In this document: positions 507-38,158 of the stretch, in pieces
Position numbering within the stretch: the stretch's first letter is position 1
Layout of the letters: each line of letters begins with the position of its first letter
From: Pseudomonadota bacterium
Lineage (GTDB): Bacteria; Bdellovibrionota_C; UBA2361; OMII01
Reading direction: 5' to 3'
DNA length: 38,158 nucleotides
NCBI GenBank assembly: GCA_900299055.1
Contig: OMII01000090.1
Span: 1-38,158 of the forward strand
The notes under the pieces: generated by a model
Databases searched by the model: none
Told to the model about the DNA's origin: nothing
What the model saw: the letters and a program-made list of their open reading frames with translations, nothing else
Position numbers and translations under genes: made by a program

Positions 507-760
507 CCTTCAGAGGCCAGGGTGGTGAGGTTATAGCGTTTCCACAAGACAACGCTGCGGTAGAGTTCACAGGGAGTGCGGCTATAAACTCGCCGATGAT
601 GACTACGTGCCGCTGGTGGCTTTTTCAACGAGGGAGTCGGGCACTATTCGCAGTAGGTCCACAATGGCTGCGTTCTCGGTTTCAAAAATAGACAAAGTGG
701 GCGCTTTCTCGAGTCAGCTGAATTGTGGTGATTAGCCGATGATGGCTCTGCCGGAATGGA
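507..760. other. intergenic, no gene seen
   Basis: I see no ORF with a ribosome binding site or recognisable protein, no T-run terminator after the LOG gene and no convincing sigma-70 promoter. Several frames on both strands stay open from about 680 onward, which I read as composition rather than coding. It leads into the stem-loop cluster at 761-971. Confidence 0.5.
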
Positions 761-971
761 CCAGAGAAGATGCAAAATGCCTGTCTCTGGCCTCGCGGTC
801 CGTATACGAGTCGCCTGCTTGCAGAGGGTGGCAGGTACACTCTCGTACGAGCCGCACGAAGGCCTTGTCCGACGTGGCGTTTGAGCACGAAGGTGGATGC
901 AGGTGGTGCAGGCGCTCTTTGCTCTTTCAGAGACGCTCGGTGTCTCTGCTCAGTCGTTCGGCTTCGAACGA
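761..971 (+). ncRNA. candidate structured RNA or 5' leader (stem-loop cluster)
   Basis: Several stem-loops follow each other. 761-767 pairs perfectly with 784-790 (CCAGAGA/TCTCTGG), with an inner GCA/TGC pair. 808-811 plus 814-818 pairs with 831-835 plus 839-842. 855-858 pairs with 873-876. 928-934 pairs perfectly with 942-948 (CAGAGAC/GTCTCTG). 954-960 pairs perfectly with 965-971 (TCGTTCG/CGAACGA) around a 4-nt loop. I tested by eye for RNase P, tmRNA, SRP RNA and 6S signatures and found none. It could be an independent small RNA or the leader of the binding-protein gene at 1051. The strand is assumed from that gene. The element and its limits are inference from base pairing only. Confidence 0.3.
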
Positions 972-1050
972 GCCGATACCCTGCTGGATGTCCCCGTATG
1001 GCGCCCATATCGACTTTTCACAGGGTGATTGTTCAAGATATTATTTGGGG

Positions 1051-2136
1051 ATGCGGCTTTATTCCTTGCTGACCCTTTGGGTCTTTATCGCAGTGCTGGC
1101 GAGTCCTATATCCTCACGAGCTGATGACCGTATTGCTATAGGCGTTTCGACCATTCTTACTGGAGACGGATCGACCTACGGCGAAGATATTAAAAATGTA
1201 CTTCTCTTCGCTAACGATAAGATAGGACACGGCCGGTTCCGCCTTGTCATCGAAGACGATAAATGTAATCCAAAAGACGCTGTCAGCGTGGCGAAAAAGC
1301 TCACATCATCCGACAGGGTGCAAGGAGTAGTAGGCTATGGGTGTAGCGGAGCTCTTCTTGGAGCGGCACCTGTGCTCGATCGATTAGGCATCCCAACGAT
1401 CGGAACAGTTGTTTCCTCAGCGAAGATATCACAAGCCGGACCTTACGTCTTTCGAACACATCCAAGTGATGAAGTCGGGGTGCAGGTTCTAATGTCGCGT
1501 TTGCAAAAGGAACACCGAACGTTTGGTGTTTTGAGTGCTCAAACTGATTTCTGTCAGGGTATTCTTGAGGGCTTGCAAAAACTTCCGCGTAGCAATGACC
1601 TCGTTATCTATGCCGAAGACGCTTTGCCGTCAGATCCCGACTTCAAGCCAGCGCTCCTGCGACTACGCTCGAAGAAGATCGATGGACTGTTCTTAAACGC
1701 GCAGGATGAAGGTGGTGCGTATCGAATGCTGAAGCAGGCAAGAGAGATCGGCCTCAACGTTCCGTTTTACACGTTCTATCTTGGAGCGAGTGCCGCGTTT
1801 TTCTCGCTGGCGGGTGGGGACGCTGAGGGAGTTGTCACGGTCGACACTCCATCGCTTGAGGAGATCTCAACTCCTGACGGTAAGAGGCTCTTTGAGGAGT
1901 TCATCGAGCGGTACGGACCTATGAAGTCGTGGAACTACTCCTTCGCAACAACTTTTGAGGGGTTCCGAGCCTTGTCACAGGCGCTCTTATATACTGGTGA
2001 TCCAATAGAGTACCTACGAAAAACCGAATTCAATGGCATTTTTGGGCCGTATTCATTCGACGAGCACGGTGATATTCGAGGCATTAGTCAGGTGCTAAAG
2101 ATCAATCAGGGTGGGCGCGCTGTAACAGTGCATTAG
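1051..2136 (+). CDS. periplasmic branched-chain-amino-acid-type substrate-binding protein
   Basis: The product is a 361-residue periplasmic binding protein of the Leu/Ile/Val-binding (peripla_BP_6) type, the solute receptor of an ABC importer or a sensor. A signal peptide is visible: MRLYSLLTLW, a hydrophobic stretch, then a cleavage region near SSRADD. The mature start IAIGVSTILTGDGSTYGEDIKN matches the usual '(I)GxxxPLTGxxAxxGxxxxxG' opening. Later come typical ligand-lobe elements such as GYGCSGALLGAAPVLDRLG and GAYRMLKQAREIG. The frame is open upstream to 739, but I chose ATG 1051 because it begins the signal peptide and the upstream translation is unlike any protein. The SD is weak (TTGGGG directly upstream). 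No permease or ATPase gene is nearby, so it is an orphan receptor here. The ligand is unknown. Confidence 0.85.
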   Translation: MRLYSLLTLWVFIAVLASPISSRADDRIAIGVSTILTGDGSTYGEDIKNVLLFANDKIGHGRFRLVIEDDKCNPKDAVSVAKKLTSSDRVQGVVGYGCSGALLGAAPVLDRLGIPTIGTVVSSAKISQAGPYVFRTHPSDEVGVQVLMSRLQKEHRTFGVLSAQTDFCQGILEGLQKLPRSNDLVIYAEDALPSDPDFKPALLRLRSKKIDGLFLNAQDEGGAYRMLKQAREIGLNVPFYTFYLGASAAFFSLAGGDAEGVVTVDTPSLEEISTPDGKRLFEEFIERYGPMKSWNYSFATTFEGFRALSQALLYTGDPIEYLRKTEFNGIFGPYSFDEHGDIRGISQVLKINQGGRAVTVH

Positions 2137-2319
2137 GTGATGTGTCTGTAGCGTTACCGGATTGATTTGCCAGCGCGATTGTTGAGCAAATGTTTAGAAA
2201 AAATCGTTGTGACAGGGACTGTAAGACACAAGTCATCGACGCTCAAATATATGCTGTAGAAAAGTAGATGCCGTGTGGTGCAAGTATATGCGAGGGGCCG
2301 CGCACCGGGCTCACATCAC

Positions 2320-2341
2320 GAAGCTAGCGAAGGTTAGCTTC
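2320..2341 (-). terminator. weak hairpin after the 2342-3121 gene
   Basis: GAAGCTA (2320-2326) and TAGCTTC (2335-2341) form a perfect 7-bp stem around an 8-nt loop, immediately after the minus-strand stop. No T-run follows, so it may be an mRNA 3'-end stabiliser rather than a terminator. Confidence 0.3.
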
Positions 2342-3121
2342 TCATTCAGTGCCGTTGCACCTCCTTTGATCAAAGAACGGCAGTTCGATCTGCAGCCGTC
2401 CATGTTTTGACAAAATCGGTAACGATGAGAGGGTCTCACTGAACCGCCCAGTCTCAGGCAGAACATCACCCAAAGTTCCGGCGTTGAGGCCAAAAAGCTT
2501 TAACGCTGCGGCGTGGTCATGGGATGGTGCCTGTGTAAATGCCGCTATCTTGCTATTAGACATAGCCAAGAATTGTGCGTAGTAAAGTTTTGGGGTTACC
2601 ACCCTGGGATCTCGATACGGCTTTGGAACGTAGTCCGCCCTTTTTATCCCTCCTGAATCGGCGTAGTAAGGTGAGAAAGCTTCAACGAAACGGGCCATCG
2701 ATTGCTGTGAACACGGAGTATTGGGATCTTGATCTACTCCGAGCGAACATAAAAAGACTCCCAGTACTCGCGACTTTCCCGGCAAAGGCAGCGTAACTCT
2801 GTACGTGCCAACATTTTTGTCGTCAGTTTTTTCCGCAAGGGGCTCTCCTTGCCACTCTATGGGCGACGTCTCTCCGATAGCCTCAACGGTTAATTTGAGC
2901 GCGAGATCACCTCGAGCGTTCTGGAGATCATTAAGAATCAGATCGTAGTCTCCAAACATACAGCGAGATACAGGAACCAAGTCAAAAAGAAAAACTTGCT
3001 CACGTTCTCCTGCTTTGAGCACTGTCATCTCGGCAAGGCCTTCAGCGTAGCTTTTCCTTGCTATGACAAACGCTACAAGGGTAGCACACCCCAATTGCGC
3101 GATCATCCTCCGTAATTTCAT
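2342..3121 (-). CDS. secreted protein of unknown function, operon partner of Hint protein
   Basis: I do not recognise this 259-residue protein. The N-terminus MKLRRMIAQLGCATLVAF then KSYAEG looks like a Sec signal peptide cleaved after about residue 26. The mature part has Cys residues (C54, C124 and C138 region, plus one near the C-terminus) that could form disulfides outside the cytoplasm. There is no membrane segment after the signal peptide. A GGAGG ribosome site lies 8 nt before the ATG, which supports the start. It begins 32 nt after the stop of the upstream Hint-domain gene on the same strand, so the two are probably cotranscribed and may act together outside the cytoplasm. Its function is open. 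Confidence 0.7.
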   Translation of the reverse strand: MKLRRMIAQLGCATLVAFVIARKSYAEGLAEMTVLKAGEREQVFLFDLVPVSRCMFGDYDLILNDLQNARGDLALKLTVEAIGETSPIEWQGEPLAEKTDDKNVGTYRVTLPLPGKSRVLGVFLCSLGVDQDPNTPCSQQSMARFVEAFSPYYADSGGIKRADYVPKPYRDPRVVTPKLYYAQFLAMSNSKIAAFTQAPSHDHAAALKLFGLNAGTLGDVLPETGRFSETLSSLPILSKHGRLQIELPFFDQRRCNGTE

Positions 3122-3153
3122 CGTTTATTCCTCCGTGCCCTGGGGAAATTAAC

Positions 3154-4158
3154 CTACTTCTTTCGTTTTGCTGAGATCTCATGCTGTACAATCAGATCTC
3201 CCACCACTAACCCGTCAGCCACCATGAGTCCGTCGCTCGGCAATCCGTGCCGTTCTAAAATAAAATTGATCACAGAGAGTCCTGCCGTAGGTCTCTCCCG
3301 TGATACCTTACGGACCTTGACTTTCTCCCCGGCCGAATCCTGTAGGATGTCTCCTGAGCGGATCTCTTGCGCCTGTCGCCATCCACGCGCCATGAACATC
3401 GGATGCTCGGTGGAAGCTCTAAGTGTCGCCCCATCGGTCTTCAGTACAACAAGCGCTTTCCTCTCGGGGCCCTCAGAGATATTCAGAATTTTCACCGCCT
3501 TCTTGGTCACGGGATTCCAAACTGTCTCGCCTGCGGAGAACTCCTCAATCTTCTTATAGGTCACTCCATCACCGGTGAGAATGTTCACTCCATGAGGGAA
3601 GCAGCCGTACTGCCATCGGACGAGGCCGCAAAGAAAGCAGGATTGCGCAGCGTTGCCCGAGAATTGGCGATCAAACAAACCACTGTCAATTGTCCACTGC
3701 CTCTGATTTATATAATCATTGATGAGGGCGTCGGAGCGAACCCAGGTAAAGTTTGTGACTAAGTTAACTCCTGTGGTGCCGAGTGTCTGTGAATTAGGAT
3801 TCTTGGCACACACCCAGGAAGAGTCGTTATCATTGAGGTACCAGCGCTTTCGAGCTGTATCGTACTCCATCTTAGCGCCATTAAACTGGTACGTGATGCC
3901 GTCGTGCACTTGATTGGCTAATGACACCTGGCTAACCGTTCGCCCGTCACAAAAACTGGCGGGGGGCGGTGGAACGGGCGTTGCCGTAGGCGGCACCGTC
4001 GCTGTCGGTGGAACAGATGTAACGCTATCATTTTGCCCATTTTCGGATTGCCGCTGGGCCCAGGCACGAGTTGCAGTAGCAGATAGCGATCCACCACTAG
4101 AGATGAATATCAACGCTACAAGCAGTCGCTTGCTATGAATATGGCGTTGCCCCTTCAT
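3154..4158 (-). CDS. exported protein with C-terminal Hint (hedgehog/intein-type) domain
   Basis: The product has 334 residues from ATG 4158; GTG 4173 is in frame, but an AAGGAAG site fits ATG 4158. The order is a signal peptide (about 1-35, ending near RAWAQ), a Thr/Pro linker with VPPTAT repeats (about 49-67), a Cys-containing N-terminal domain (about 70-184), then a Hint domain (about 185-325). Hint blocks are clear: C186 opening GCFPHGVNILTGDG, the IEEFSAGETVW turn, the block B TEHP motif with T250 and H252, then GWRQAQEIRSGDIL, and the closing VADGLVVGDL. The closing block lacks the terminal His-Asn needed for intein excision, so hedgehog-like thioester cleavage before C186 is possible but splicing is not expected. 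The substrate of any released thioester and the role of the N-domain are unknown. It is the first gene of a two-gene operon. Confidence 0.8.
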   Translation of the reverse strand: MKGQRHIHSKRLLVALIFISSGGSLSATATRAWAQRQSENGQNDSVTSVPPTATVPPTATPVPPPPASFCDGRTVSQVSLANQVHDGITYQFNGAKMEYDTARKRWYLNDNDSSWVCAKNPNSQTLGTTGVNLVTNFTWVRSDALINDYINQRQWTIDSGLFDRQFSGNAAQSCFLCGLVRWQYGCFPHGVNILTGDGVTYKKIEEFSAGETVWNPVTKKAVKILNISEGPERKALVVLKTDGATLRASTEHPMFMARGWRQAQEIRSGDILQDSAGEKVKVRKVSRERPTAGLSVINFILERHGLPSDGLMVADGLVVGDLIVQHEISAKRKK

Positions 4159-4565
4159 CGAATCTTCCTTCACGTGATCTCTCGGATTGGTAATCGACTC
4201 CTCGCGAGACTTTCTTGAGTAATGCTTTATTTGCGCCGTGATTACAAGAGTTTGGAAGTTCGTTGTGGGGTTGCCGAATTGCTTTGCTAGCGCTACTTCT
4301 GCCCAATTTCTCTGCGATAATCAGGAAGACTAGGTAGGTGAAACGCACGTCTCTCTTCGTGAGCTCAGTAAGTAAGGAGTGCTCCTCAGCCTCAGCCTCT
4401 GCATCTCGGTACGCTCTGCGATTGTACGAAGCTTAGAGCTTTGAGCTCAGAAATAGCCACTGACTATGTTGTGGTCAGCGGTGCCAGGGAAGGGAGCTGC
4501 GTCTGTGTTGAGGACCCCTTGCCATCGTGTGGTTCATTAGCGTAAGCGCGTGAAGCCAATGTCTG
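4159..4565. other. 407-nt intergenic region upstream of the Hint operon
   Basis: This presumably holds the minus-strand promoter of the Hint operon and the 3' end of the 4566-5993 gene. Visible elements are a CTGAC/GTCAG stem-loop (about 4460-4476), GAGCTCAG at 4361-4368 and again at 4443-4450, and a short GAGCT/AGCTC hairpin overlapping the second copy. None has a T-run. I find no convincing -35/-10 pair. A 71-codon minus-strand frame starting at 4348 overlaps the Hint start and is not supported. Confidence 0.45.
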
Positions 4566-5993
4566 TTACGGCTGTTCTATCTCAGCCTCGGCTTGCCGCC
4601 TCTCGGCGGCTGCACGGATCGCTTCTAAGAAGCGGTTGCGAATTTCCTCTCTACGAGCCTCTTCTTCTGAGGCATTCGCGGGTATGCTCTCAGATTCAAC
4701 GGGTTCTTCAGATTCGTTGTAAACCTCCTCGACAGGTGCTGGAGCGCCCGGAGATTTGCTGCTCGCGGACTCTAACAATGAGAAGAGATTGCCAGATTTA
4801 TCTGCCTGGGCTTGGTTCGCTTGAGTCTTGTCATCTGCGGCGCTTTTAAAGTTGGCAACACCGCGCGCCGTATCAAGAAGGGATGTCTTGATAATACTTG
4901 GATAGTGGTCGAGCACAAAATCTTCGCTGGACTTCTTCGATGTCTCCTGCTGGCGAGATAGCGTTGTGTCCGCGACGACTACGTCTGTTGAGCCTTCATC
5001 CTTTATCGAGTGCGCTGGTGCATCGCCCGAAGCTGGGCGCTCTGTTGTTGGCTGGACTTTGTGCTCAGATACTGTGGCTGCCTTAATGGCTGAGCCGCTC
5101 TCGTGTGCGTGAGGTGTTGGGCGCCGTGAATTCGAGAAAAAGCCTATGCCTACCCATACGCTTAGAGCAACACCCAGTGATACTGCTGATACTTTCGCTA
5201 TCGCTTGCCCCCGGCGAGGACGCGTAGGATCCAATAGCGTATCTGTTGAAGCAGGTGTTCCGCTCATTGCTGCAGTCGCGAGAGCTACTTTCTCCGGAGC
5301 TCGGCTAGCTTGCTGGTGTTCTTGGCGTACCTTGTCTCTGATTTCGTTGATGAGTGCGTTGTTATGTGATCCCGCTGCTCCAAAGCCGATCGTTCTCTGA
5401 GAAGTTTGACCAACTTCAATTCGCTCGACTGATTGATTGTCGATCCAGCTCTCAGGCCGATAGGAGAGTGCTGGGATTACGATCAGAGCTTTGCGTGATC
5501 GCGCAAATGTTGCTAGCAAATCCGCTGCGCGTTCACGCCACTGACCGGAGATGTTTTCGAAGGGGTCGTTCAGAACTAGAACCCGCTCGGGATCGGTTGT
5601 GGCGGCGATCAATCGTAGCCTGGCTTCTTGATCAGCACTTAAGTCAGAGCATTTTTTTTCCGCTACGTTCTCAAGGCCGATTTGTAAGAGAAGAGCGTCC
5701 GCGGCCGAGTCGTTGATGTCATGCTTTGCGAGAAAGTCGCGCACAAGTAGTCCGGTTGTAGGTGAAGGCTCTCCAAAGCCGATAACGATATGTTCTTCTG
5801 CGCGGTATTCGTTGCCGGCGCAGGTGACCACGAGATTCTCTTTTCCTGGCGAACCCCCAAGGGCTCTCTGGTAGGGGCGCAGGTCGCTCGGCACTGACGC
5901 TCGAAGCACCGAGATCTTCCCGGCGAGGCAGTTTACCACGTTTAAAAGTTCCCCTGAGTTGGATAGAAGCTTGAGTTGTAACTTGTTCGGCAT
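4566..5993 (-). CDS. single-pass membrane protein with degenerate ABC-ATPase-like domain
   Basis: The product has 475 residues. Residues 1-205 follow the layout of an ABC ATPase: a GELL strand (14-17), a GLLVRDFL segment (81-88) in the place of 'GLTVRENL', a signature-like DLSADQEARLRLIAA (117-131), and a Walker B-like strand VLVLNDPF (138-145). Key residues are lost. No GxxGxGKS Walker A is present (the equivalent region about 30-47 lacks GKS). The Walker B Asp is Asn142 and the catalytic Glu is Asp143. The switch His is absent (LIVIPAL). A linker follows, then one transmembrane helix (about 266-286) and a long hydrophilic, Ser/Glu-rich tail ending in a charged helix (about 443-472). The likely topology is an inner-membrane protein with a cytoplasmic pseudo-ATPase and a periplasmic tail. 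The ABC relationship is my reading of motifs; the function is unknown. Confidence 0.65.
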   Translation of the reverse strand: MPNKLQLKLLSNSGELLNVVNCLAGKISVLRASVPSDLRPYQRALGGSPGKENLVVTCAGNEYRAEEHIVIGFGEPSPTTGLLVRDFLAKHDINDSAADALLLQIGLENVAEKKCSDLSADQEARLRLIAATTDPERVLVLNDPFENISGQWRERAADLLATFARSRKALIVIPALSYRPESWIDNQSVERIEVGQTSQRTIGFGAAGSHNNALINEIRDKVRQEHQQASRAPEKVALATAAMSGTPASTDTLLDPTRPRRGQAIAKVSAVSLGVALSVWVGIGFFSNSRRPTPHAHESGSAIKAATVSEHKVQPTTERPASGDAPAHSIKDEGSTDVVVADTTLSRQQETSKKSSEDFVLDHYPSIIKTSLLDTARGVANFKSAADDKTQANQAQADKSGNLFSLLESASSKSPGAPAPVEEVYNESEEPVESESIPANASEEEARREEIRNRFLEAIRAAAERRQAEAEIEQP

Positions 5994-7381: not shown

Positions 7382-9202
7382 ATGAACCCCCCAATTATAC
7401 ATCGTGAGGACGCCGTAAAGGTGCGGCAAGCATACGCCACCGCTGGCAAGCGAGTCGGGTTTACGTCGGGGGTATTTGATATCGTGCACCCAGGCCATGT
7501 GGAGTATCTGCGTGCTGCGCGCGAGCTTGTTGATGTTTTGTTTGTTGGTGTTAATTCCGATCTATCCGTCCGAGCTAATAAAGGACCGACAAGGCCCATA
7601 AACTCCGAACGTGATAGAGCGGAGGTCCTGTTGGGGCTCTCCTCGGTCGACCATGTTTTTATCTTCGACGAGCGCAACAACAACACTAATATCGAGCTTC
7701 TGCGCCCGGATGTGTATATCAAAGCAGGGGATTACTCAGAGGAGCGTCTCAGCTCTAAGAAGATAGTGGAGTCTTACGGCGGTTCGGTCGCATTGGTGCC
7801 GTTTCGTGAAGGCAGCTCAACGACTGGAGTCGTTGCAAAGATAAAAGCAGCTCTTGTGACACAAGAAGGACATGAAGTTTCCTATGACTTTCGCCCCGCG
7901 GTGTTCCTCGACCGTGATGGCACCATCAACGAGCATATCGAATATTTAAGCGAGCCCGCGAGGTTTATTCCAATTCCCGGCGCTTACGCGGCAATCAAGC
8001 GTCTTCAAGATCTTGGATATCGGATAGTGGTAGTGACTAATCAGCCCGGAATAGGTCTTGGCTACTTTCGCAGAGAAGATCTATTTGCCGTAAATCGTGA
8101 GATGATGAGACAAGGCACAGAGTACGGCTGTGCTTTTGATAAGATTTACTACTGCCCGCACTCAAAAGCAGACGCCTGTGCGTGTCGTAAACCAGGGACG
8201 TATTTTATCAAGCTGGCAGAGCGAGAATTAAATATAGACCTCGCCAATAGCGTTATCATCGGTGACATGACATCCGATGTAGAATGTGGGGTCCAGTCTG
8301 GCTTGCGTACTGTGTTGGTGAGAACTGGGCGCGGCGGTGATGATAAGATGTTCAAGGTCGCACCGACGCATATAGCCGCTGACCTTGCTGGTGCCGCTGA
8401 GTGGATAGCAGCCCAACCAAAAGTTGCCGCGCGCGAGGGTGGGGCTTCCGTTGTAAAATCGACTGCTCACGATGCACACTTTCTTGCGGCAGCGACCTCT
8501 CTCGCTGACAACCTGGGCCGGGAGTACGCGACGATATTTGGCTCTGTCCTGGGGGGTGCCACTCTGATTGAACAACGTACCAGCACAGATGGCTCACCGT
8601 CGATAGTGGCGGATTCGTTGGATCTGATACGCAAAGCGTCACATCGTGGATTAGCCCTATCGAAGAAGCTTGAGGCGCTGGCGAGAGCGGAGGAGCGGCC
8701 CAGCGCGACGAGATCGCTGGAGTCTTGTGTGAAGGCCGTCATAGAGCTTGTATCAAGTCATCACGGCGATGAGTGTCAGATAGAACTGATATGTCCAGAG
8801 GATGTAGAGGTTGAGGTAGCTGATTTTACCGTCGTGCAGATGTTGCTTGAGCTGTGCGAGAACGCCTTGGAAGCTATGAGAGCCCTACCGGAGCGCTTTA
8901 TCGTGTTTCACGTCGAGAGGCTAGAACTTGACAGCGAAGCGTCTGCTCTTGAATTGAAGCCGGGGTCTTATGCCCGCGTCAGTATTGTCGACCACGGCGA
9001 TGGGCTTGAAGAGCCTCGGGAGCGGGACGGCCTTGTATCCCTCTCGGCGGCCCGCGTAAAAGAGTATGGGCGAGGCCTGGGTCTGAGTATGTTGATGGCC
9101 AAGTCTGTCATGAAGCAACATGGCGGAACCGTGGCTGTGGCGTCTCGCCTGCAGGCGGGGACTAATATATCTCTCTACTTCCCAGTGTCTCATAAATCCT
9201 AG
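7382..9202 (+). CDS. rfaE2-gmhB: fusion: heptose-1-P adenylyltransferase + heptose bisphosphate phosphatase + histidine-kinase-like ATPase module
   Basis: The 606-residue protein has three parts. (1) Residues 1-158 form a RfaE2/HldE-C type nucleotidyltransferase: GVFDIVHPGH with HxGH (36-39), then NSERDRAEVL and IKAGDY. It transfers AMP to heptose-1-phosphate. (2) Residues 172-345 form a GmhB HAD phosphatase: FLDRDGT with D177/D179, VVVTNQPGIG, the zinc set C258/H260/C266/C268 and GDMTSD (D295). It dephosphorylates heptose 1,7-bisphosphate, the step just before adenylylation. (3) Residues about 360-604 form a histidine-kinase core: a two-helix region, N-box ELCENALEAM (N494), G1 DHGDG (537-541), G2 GRGLGL (563-568) and GGTVAVAS near the end. 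Where an AHDFNN H-box would align, D376 replaces His, although an AHD at 362-364 lies nearby. Parts 1-2 give two consecutive ADP-heptose (LPS core) steps. The role of part 3 is unknown. SD is weak. Confidence 0.88.
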   Translation: MNPPIIHREDAVKVRQAYATAGKRVGFTSGVFDIVHPGHVEYLRAARELVDVLFVGVNSDLSVRANKGPTRPINSERDRAEVLLGLSSVDHVFIFDERNNNTNIELLRPDVYIKAGDYSEERLSSKKIVESYGGSVALVPFREGSSTTGVVAKIKAALVTQEGHEVSYDFRPAVFLDRDGTINEHIEYLSEPARFIPIPGAYAAIKRLQDLGYRIVVVTNQPGIGLGYFRREDLFAVNREMMRQGTEYGCAFDKIYYCPHSKADACACRKPGTYFIKLAERELNIDLANSVIIGDMTSDVECGVQSGLRTVLVRTGRGGDDKMFKVAPTHIAADLAGAAEWIAAQPKVAAREGGASVVKSTAHDAHFLAAATSLADNLGREYATIFGSVLGGATLIEQRTSTDGSPSIVADSLDLIRKASHRGLALSKKLEALARAEERPSATRSLESCVKAVIELVSSHHGDECQIELICPEDVEVEVADFTVVQMLLELCENALEAMRALPERFIVFHVERLELDSEASALELKPGSYARVSIVDHGDGLEEPRERDGLVSLSAARVKEYGRGLGLSMLMAKSVMKQHGGTVAVASRLQAGTNISLYFPVSHKS

Positions 9203-36717: not shown

Positions 36718-38158
36718 TTATTTCGCGTAGACTTCGATGTAATCGGATTGCGAGACCTGAGAAGCAGTGAAAAACCCGCTTCTACACGTGTAGCCGTGAC
36801 CAGAGTCGATAGTACCGTTCTGCATAATAGTGCAGAAATCATTGTCTGCACCGTTGACGATCGAAATGTTTAACGGAGGGAAGATCGTGTTGGCGCTCAG
36901 GTTGTACGGTGAGCCCTGAAAGCGGAGGTGCGCGTAACTTGAACCGTCAGAGGCTCCATCCCACATATTATTTGCACCCGATTCAAATTTTAAGCAGGCC
37001 CCTTGATCGGTAGTAGCGATGACAAAATCACCAGATCGATTCGTCCAGTTACACGTCCGCGCGGTAGATCCTCCCACAAAGCTCGTATACTTCTGGAGGT
37101 TCCCACTGAAGTCGCTTACGGAGTTTAGTCCTCTGCCGTTTGCGACGGCTCCCCAGGTCGCAAACCCTTGTCTGTCATTTCCAAGGATATACTTGTGTGC
37201 CGTAAGTGAGCCTACTGTCGATAGTGATAAGTATTCAGATGTTGAGGGCACCGTGCTCGTAATATTTGCGTTGTCGGCGAAGGTTCTGGTGATCAGGGTC
37301 CAGCCACCTCCTGAGTAGTCCATGTTGCAGAAATGATTCTCTGCGCTCAACGAGCCAGCTCCATCGGGGTCGATTCGATAGACCCCCGTTCCGCGGCTGG
37401 CGCCATTTGACAGGATGCTTGCGCACGAGACCCCTTCAGATGAGAGCGATGAGCCGGTAACAGAGACTCGGTGACTTAAGCAGCTTGAAGCGCCAGATGC
37501 GCCACGAAACCTGGCGTAGACGGTGGCGGTGCCGTCACCAGAGTTAACAAGAGTCCACGATTTTGTAGCCGCCTTTGTCTCCCATGTTCCGCCTGATGCG
37601 CAGCCGGAGGGGTTCGTAATATACATTTCAGTTGCTGTTGGCGCGTACGTGCTGAGCGTAGCTGATGTTCCCGAGTTTGATGAGACCTCTAGAGATGAGG
37701 GGCCATTCAAATCGCTGGGTGCTAGGCGTACGCCTCGACCACCGACATTTTTATAGCGAGTTGTATCAGTGCTTGCAGCGCTGCCACGGTCTGAGATTCG
37801 CAAATACCCCACGCTATCTAGCCAGCCACCACCTCGAAGGCCGATACCTGCCGCGCTCGTTCCTGGCCACGTGCTTACATCAGGATCCCCACTCGCGTTG
37901 AGGGCGCCGTTGCCGTGATAGCGACCCTCAAAGCTCCTCCCTGAACTGTTACCAATTGTTACAGGTCGCTCCCATAGATTGCCCGAGAGTTCCATGGCTC
38001 CATAGTAGCCACCCCCAGAAGCTATTCTTGTGGTGACATTGTAGGCAAAGCTACCCACTCGCAAAGGACCTTGCACAGATGCGTGATTACCATAAGCGGC
38101 GTTTGAGCCGCTCTGAGCGCGCTCGGCCGACAACCCTCCACTTAAGATGCTTGTGGCC
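36718..38158 (-). CDS. large secreted protein with FGE/SUMF1-like and fibrinogen-like domains, N-terminus outside window
   Basis: The frame is open to the window edge, so the N-terminus is missing. From the edge a SUMF1/FGE-sulfatase-like C-terminal part is seen (GAMELSGNLWER, then GIGLRGGGWLDSVG, ISDRGSA and GGRGVRLAP), the fold of formylglycine-generating or carbohydrate-binding enzymes. Then comes a Ser/Thr-rich Ig-like segment (about 80 residues). Last is a fibrinogen-like region with Cys pairs: GVYRIDPDG, NHFCNMDYSGGGWTLITRTF, then CLKFESGANNMWDG, and a C-terminal TCRSGFF and YIEVYAK. The Cys arrangement and composition indicate an extracellular protein, probably an adhesin or surface protein. 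Catalytic activity of the FGE-like part cannot be judged from this half. Confidence 0.75.
   Translation of the reverse strand, partial: ATSILSGGLSAERAQSGSNAAYGNHASVQGPLRVGSFAYNVTTRIASGGGYYGAMELSGNLWERPVTIGNSSGRSFEGRYHGNGALNASGDPDVSTWPGTSAAGIGLRGGGWLDSVGYLRISDRGSAASTDTTRYKNVGGRGVRLAPSDLNGPSSLEVSSNSGTSATLSTYAPTATEMYITNPSGCASGGTWETKAATKSWTLVNSGDGTATVYARFRGASGASSCLSHRVSVTGSSLSSEGVSCASILSNGASRGTGVYRIDPDGAGSLSAENHFCNMDYSGGGWTLITRTFADNANITSTVPSTSEYLSLSTVGSLTAHKYILGNDRQGFATWGAVANGRGLNSVSDFSGNLQKYTSFVGGSTARTCNWTNRSGDFVIATTDQGACLKFESGANNMWDGASDGSSYAHLRFQGSPYNLSANTIFPPLNISIVNGADNDFCTIMQNGTIDSGHGYTCRSGFFTASQVSQSDYIEVYAK

Follow-up and report, generated by a model that had tools for sequence, protein, structure and literature searches.

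We found that a single gene in the 38,158-nucleotide stretch of DNA analysed here (contig OMII01000090.1, hereafter the window) joins two heptose enzymes to a histidine-kinase core in which Arg occupies the phosphoacceptor position. With moderate confidence, we interpret this third module as a pseudo-histidine kinase that serves as a dimerisation or regulatory module on a bifunctional enzyme of the LPS core. These results suggest that a metabolic enzyme has taken over a signalling module as one of its structural or regulatory parts.

Results

Architecture of the three-module gene

One uninterrupted frame of 606 codons, starting with ATG, runs from position 7382 to 9202 on the plus strand. HMM matches to all three modules lie within it, confirming the single three-module frame that the first-pass annotation had described. 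The features of the gene are as follows; L009, L010 and L014 are other fusions of the same kind.

7382-9202, plus strand: whole three-module gene, 606 amino acids plus stop; orthologues exist
7430-7846, plus strand: RfaE2/HldC heptose-1-phosphate adenylyltransferase module, residues 17-155, HxGH at 36-39; TIGR02199 match, 5xf2 fold match
7895-8416, plus strand: GmhB heptose-1,7-bisphosphate 7-phosphatase module, about residues 171-345; NF006506 match, 3l8h/3l8e fold match
8417-8464, plus strand: variable linker, about residues 346-361, low pLDDT
8465-8686, plus strand: DHp-like helical hairpin, helices 362-400 and 408-435 in the module-3 model
8519-8521, plus strand: R380 codon, H-box phosphoacceptor position by alignment with L009, L010, L014 and 25 other kinase cores
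8717-9190, plus strand: CA (HATPase_c) domain, about residues 446-603; PF02518 match, 5idm (CckA CA) fold match
8861-8863, plus strand: N-box N494, invariant across 11 fusions
8990-9004, plus strand: G1 box DHGDG, residues 537-541
9017-9067, plus strand: diverged F-box/ATP-lid stretch, residues 546-562, 0 of 17 columns invariant
9068-9085, plus strand: G2 box GRGLGL, residues 563-568

The third module was matched both by PF02518 (HATPase_c; residues 484-603, E 1.9e-10, 41.6 bits against a cut-off of 26.4) and by the whole-kinase-core model NF010076 (residues 365-605, E 8.1e-21), which moved the start of module 3 back to residue 365. Structure prediction of the full chain (mean pLDDT 69.7) gave putative HldC, GmhB and DHp-CA folds. 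The models matched the solved structures of HldC (5xf2; TMt up to 0.89), GmhB (3l8h and 3l8e; 0.82-0.85) and histidine kinases (9jfj and 5idj). In the model of module 3 (mean pLDDT 69.2), helices 362-400 and 408-435 are followed by a CA fold. Its top fold matches were ZraS and CckA, and the CckA CA domain with AMPPNP aligned to it at TMt 0.74. The DHp part is of low confidence, with pLDDT about 50-60 in single-chain models whose alignments took in 7-8 sequences, and its placing relative to CA is unreliable because whole-core TM-scores were about 0.5.

Two consecutive heptose enzymes and their genomic context

Residues 17-155 matched TIGR02199 (RfaE2) at E 6.8e-51 with 171.9 bits, the curated cut-off being 181.5, and residues about 171-345 matched NF006506 (GmhB) at E 1.9e-48 with 164.4 bits, the cut-off being 178. 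Both enzyme matches were likewise slightly under the curated cut-offs in the relatives L014, L015 and L008. H36 and H39 of the HxGH motif are present in the RfaE2/HldC module, and the GmhB module has the HAD residues D177 and D179 together with the zinc set C258, H260, C266 and C268. The adenylyltransferase and the phosphatase with its full zinc and Asp set were thus correctly named in the first-pass annotation, as was the pair's role in consecutive ADP-heptose steps. Within the genus, mean identity is 68% for RfaE2 and 73% for GmhB, and 37% for residues 319-365 around the linker. In L014 (1486-3282; genome G012), three of the four GmhB zinc ligands are missing, with S, S and W at window residues 258, 266 and 268; the same number of ligands is missing from several of the two-module enzymes, L021 and L024 among them.

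A search of the window's genome at E 0.001 returned no second RfaE2 or GmhB. The other heptose genes are separate: a GmhA homologue (C290) below the family cut-off, HldA (C249) just under it with 332 of 345 bits, and HldD (C37) above it. Heptosyltransferase-like genes adjoin HldA. In the species covered by a review of the ADP-heptose pathway (PMC10221265), the adenylyltransferase is either HldC or part of HldE. Since no other RfaE2 or GmhB was detected and the other heptose genes are separate, the three-module protein is probably needed for the LPS inner core, given the pathway as set out in that review.

Some genomes of other lineages have a second, HldE-like protein (frames of about 507-618 amino acids) beside the standard heptose genes, as in G013 (C12:136417-140293), G012, G019, G020 and G024. 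In some of them this gene adjoins GmhA-like and epimerase genes; it was not seen in the window's genus.

Distribution of the fusion and its locus

The three-part gene was found in 10 species of the genus, the window included, as one frame in nine and split over two contigs in G006. Two further genus genomes, 60 and 70% complete, gave no match. The genus genes have diverged to about 55% identity, and none of the 10 is a shortened copy. L014, from another family of the order (G012), has the same three-part architecture. In nine other families, 13 genomes carry the RfaE2-GmhB fusion alone; G013 and G020 gave no match to it, and the match in G028 was partial. For the remainder of the class (the class and phylum sets are the same 46 genomes here), a search at E 1e-50 returned nothing, the matches there being to single domains, and the 46 genomes contained no further three-part fusion. 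A wider contig scan yielded one two-module gene and otherwise just the same species again. The search for related fusions proposed in the first-pass annotation therefore shows that the architecture recurs.

Where flanks were available, the gene lies in a syntenic locus. A conserved protein of about 475 amino acids and, in most cases, also an Rsm22-like methyltransferase are encoded upstream on the other strand, and a penicillin-binding protein, bactofilin, L19 and MreB lie downstream. Recurrence in 10 species and in another family means that the gene is not a product of chance or of misjoining. We found no support, beyond the draft state of the genomes, for the idea that an assembly artefact or a frameshift had joined two genes. 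This idea has a negligible probability and was rejected: genomes assembled independently of one another have the same junction, at the same position in the syntenic locus. A separate kinase gene directly after the two-module gene was absent at the two loci checked in other families, where the next gene encodes an unknown 459-amino-acid protein (L064) or an RmlD-like reductase (L065).

Other features of the window were also observed. The protein of about 475 amino acids at 4569-5993 (minus strand) has no Pfam match and is kept at the same place throughout the genus and in G015. Positions 739-4173 hold three genes that look like an insertion, since in relatives the genes on either side lie close together. 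Of their products, one is a Peripla_BP_6 protein, another has a HINT/intein-like match that is weak (E 7.8e-6) and the third has no Pfam match. A weak match to the fibrinogen C-terminal domain (E 1.3e-4, 22.3 bits, cut-off 22) lies at 36721-38133 (minus strand).

Loss of the phosphoacceptor His

To locate the acceptor column, the 11 fusions were aligned together with 25 further kinase cores from the same order. In the window protein the H-box stretch is LADNLGREYATIFGS, with R380 at the acceptor position, so that the phosphoacceptor His of a histidine kinase is replaced. The corresponding stretches of L014, FAGRVGHDFNNLLGS, and L010, LSGAIGHDFNTILGS, have His. The first-pass annotation had taken D376 as the H-box equivalent, which is wrong: R380 aligns with the His of L009, L010 and L014, and D376 sits four residues upstream in a column that varies freely. 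Its description of a core lacking the phosphoacceptor His holds for the window protein; these three orthologues have the His. His is missing in 8 of the 11 fusions, the residue being Arg in the window, L005 and L006, Ala in L007, L011 and L013, Tyr in L008 and Gly in L012. All 25 of the other kinase cores sampled have His, and an acidic residue at H+1 is kept in all 11 fusions.

Parsimony on the module-3 tree, with His ancestral, gave four losses (the R clade, the A/G clade, L007 and L008), a count affected by the less firmly supported placement of L008. A single early loss with later regain of His, instead of four losses, is formally conceivable. By the alignment and tree, His has been lost several times in the genus fusions. 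As His is present in two congeners and in the outgroup, this is, on the sequence evidence, a lineage losing phosphotransfer and not a kinase type that was His-less originally. Phosphotransfer may persist in the two congeners, since both still have His.

Origin of the kinase core

In a tree that included the 25 further kinase cores from the order, the fused cores formed one clade with support of 100/99. When the L014 core was matched across 29 genomes, the genus fusions led. The nearest solved sequence relative of this core was 5idj (E 7e-16), labelled CckA in the fold search. By these comparisons, module 3 has a single origin and derives from HDFNN-type (CckA/ZraS-like) kinases. In trees of the enzyme modules alone the two families were not grouped, and one clade was not rejected (p-AU 0.109). 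Given the single module-3 clade (100/99), we do not favour independent fusions in the two families. The data fit a single capture and then either loss from other families or transfer.

The order also has a conserved histidine kinase of about 1050 amino acids with GAF/PAS domains and an H-N-F-N-N H-box (L049:5371-8472, L050:2207-5422, L051:6197-9391 and L062:4094-7177). It directly follows short genes that, judged by eye, look of the flagellar-export type, with an FlhB-like start. These kinases form their own clade, and a role as direct source of module 3 was unsupported.

Nucleotide site and constraint on module 3

All 11 fusions have N494, D537, G539 and G565. G541 and G567 are each kept in 10 of 11; the exceptions are L006 and L005, which are closely related to the window gene and lack one or the other. 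The N-box, G1 and G2 had been called intact, which is true of the core residues; divergence is seen between G1 and G2, in the F-box/ATP lid (SLSAAR in the window protein against FFSTK in the outgroup), which makes ATP binding by the window protein uncertain. The H-box and the ATP lid are among the most variable stretches of the fusions, with mean column entropy within the genus of 1.73 bits for the H-box stretch and 2.06 bits for the lid. Lower values were obtained for the part of helix 1 that follows the H position (0.54 bits), for the first part of CA (0.76) and from G2 to the end (0.62). The invariance of nucleotide-site residues points to some role that CA has kept; the variability of the lid and the missing His speak against phosphotransfer in the window's species.

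It is improbable that module 3 is still an active kinase, with CA phosphorylating its own chain in the His-bearing species and a partner or another residue in the His-less ones. The His of L009, L010 and L014, the acidic H+1 residue and the kept nucleotide residues would agree with such activity, but His is gone from most fusions, no lid column is invariant in the genus and G541 or G567 is lost in L006 and L005.

We also considered whether the fused core is a functionless passenger that is being lost. His, the lid and some G-box residues are eroding, and DHp evolves faster than the enzyme modules, with a mean identity within the genus of 50% against 68-73%. However, CA has a mean identity of 63%, none of the 10 genus genes is shortened, and dN/dS, where dS could be estimated, is far below 1 (about 0.07-0.18 for DHp and about 0.06-0.14 for CA; these values show constraint and not its exact strength, because dS is high or saturated in many comparisons). 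We therefore regard this decay as improbable too.

The stretch just after the H position, including S388, L390 and G391, is among the best conserved parts of module 3. Response regulators dock just after the H position in known kinases. The DHp face might still dock a response regulator or another kinase, and this binding would control the heptose enzyme, so that signals would flow into metabolism, a two-component system in reverse. We judge this unlikely, though somewhat less so than the two preceding readings: the conserved neighbourhood at the locus contains no response regulator, and a dimer core would predict the same conservation. In its favour is DivL, whose acceptor site is Tyr in most orthologues and Ala in one (PMC4211667); here, Tyr is found in L008 and Ala in three fusions.

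Discussion

Among the three roles put forward in the first-pass annotation, dimerisation or regulation agrees best with the data. The poor conservation of the ATP lid, which ranks with the least conserved stretches, makes a protein kinase acting on an unknown partner a poorer match. Module 3 has a predicted kinase-derived DHp-CA fold in which His is replaced, as in a pseudo-histidine kinase. From motifs and profile matches, the GmhB domain would take off the 7-phosphate and the RfaE2/HldC domain would adenylate the product. The C-terminal extension, a DHp-CA core that would now be a pseudo-histidine kinase in the genus, may act through its DHp helices, which would pair two chains into a dimer. 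We infer that CA is docked on this bundle, binds ATP or ADP at least in some members and controls how the two enzyme heads are arranged or how active they are, with no further need for phosphotransfer via the H-box His. Counting against this dimer or regulatory reading, the enzyme used in the 13 genomes from other families has two modules and lacks module 3.

All three modules are known individually, as are pseudo-histidine kinases. A literature search of titles and abstract openings, with few subscription journals, returned no description of a heptose enzyme combined with a kinase core and no precedent for graded acceptor loss within one genus. The earlier statement that no named family covers the whole architecture holds within what could be searched. 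The host of the module is the only detected enzyme for two consecutive heptose steps of the LPS inner core. The acceptor residue of orthologues in close relatives is His, Tyr, Ala, Gly or Arg, and related families have the enzyme but lack the module. These proteins form a natural series, and each of them can serve to test how a signalling kinase turned into a regulatory or scaffold domain. As a tentative possibility, the retired kinase core on the sole HldC-GmhB enzyme may sense ATP/ADP or a phosphorylated receiver and directly set the rate of ADP-heptose supply. If so, a two-component signalling surface would control LPS-core synthesis after translation, in a genus that keeps His-bearing intermediate stages.

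Modules 1 and 2 resemble HldC and GmhB of the ADP-heptose pathway in sequence, motifs and predicted folds. These are separate proteins in the species reviewed in PMC10221265, whereas in the window they are fused together and to a kinase core. The two-module fusions of the same order (L015-L027) have an orthologous enzyme part, in G015 at the same syntenic locus, but they end near residue 345-355 without the kinase core that the window gene has. CckA/ZraS-type cores with an HDFNN H-box are the closest solved relatives of module 3 in sequence and fold. Unlike module 3, which has R380 and no sensor or receiver domain, these cores retain the phosphoacceptor His, and their lid is intact.

The two pseudo-histidine kinases taken as precedents sit on sensors, whereas module 3 sits on a heptose enzyme. 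DivL has, like module 3, a DHp-CA core with a non-His acceptor residue, and it works without kinase activity (PMC4211667). It carries PAS sensor domains and acts in cell-fate control; the likeness drawn here is that of the kinase fold. The kinase-related domain of plant phytochrome B, to which PMC5712524 ascribes dimerisation, is C-terminal, lacks the His and keeps the CA boxes, as module 3 does; it sits on a photoreceptor, unlike module 3, which sits on an enzyme.
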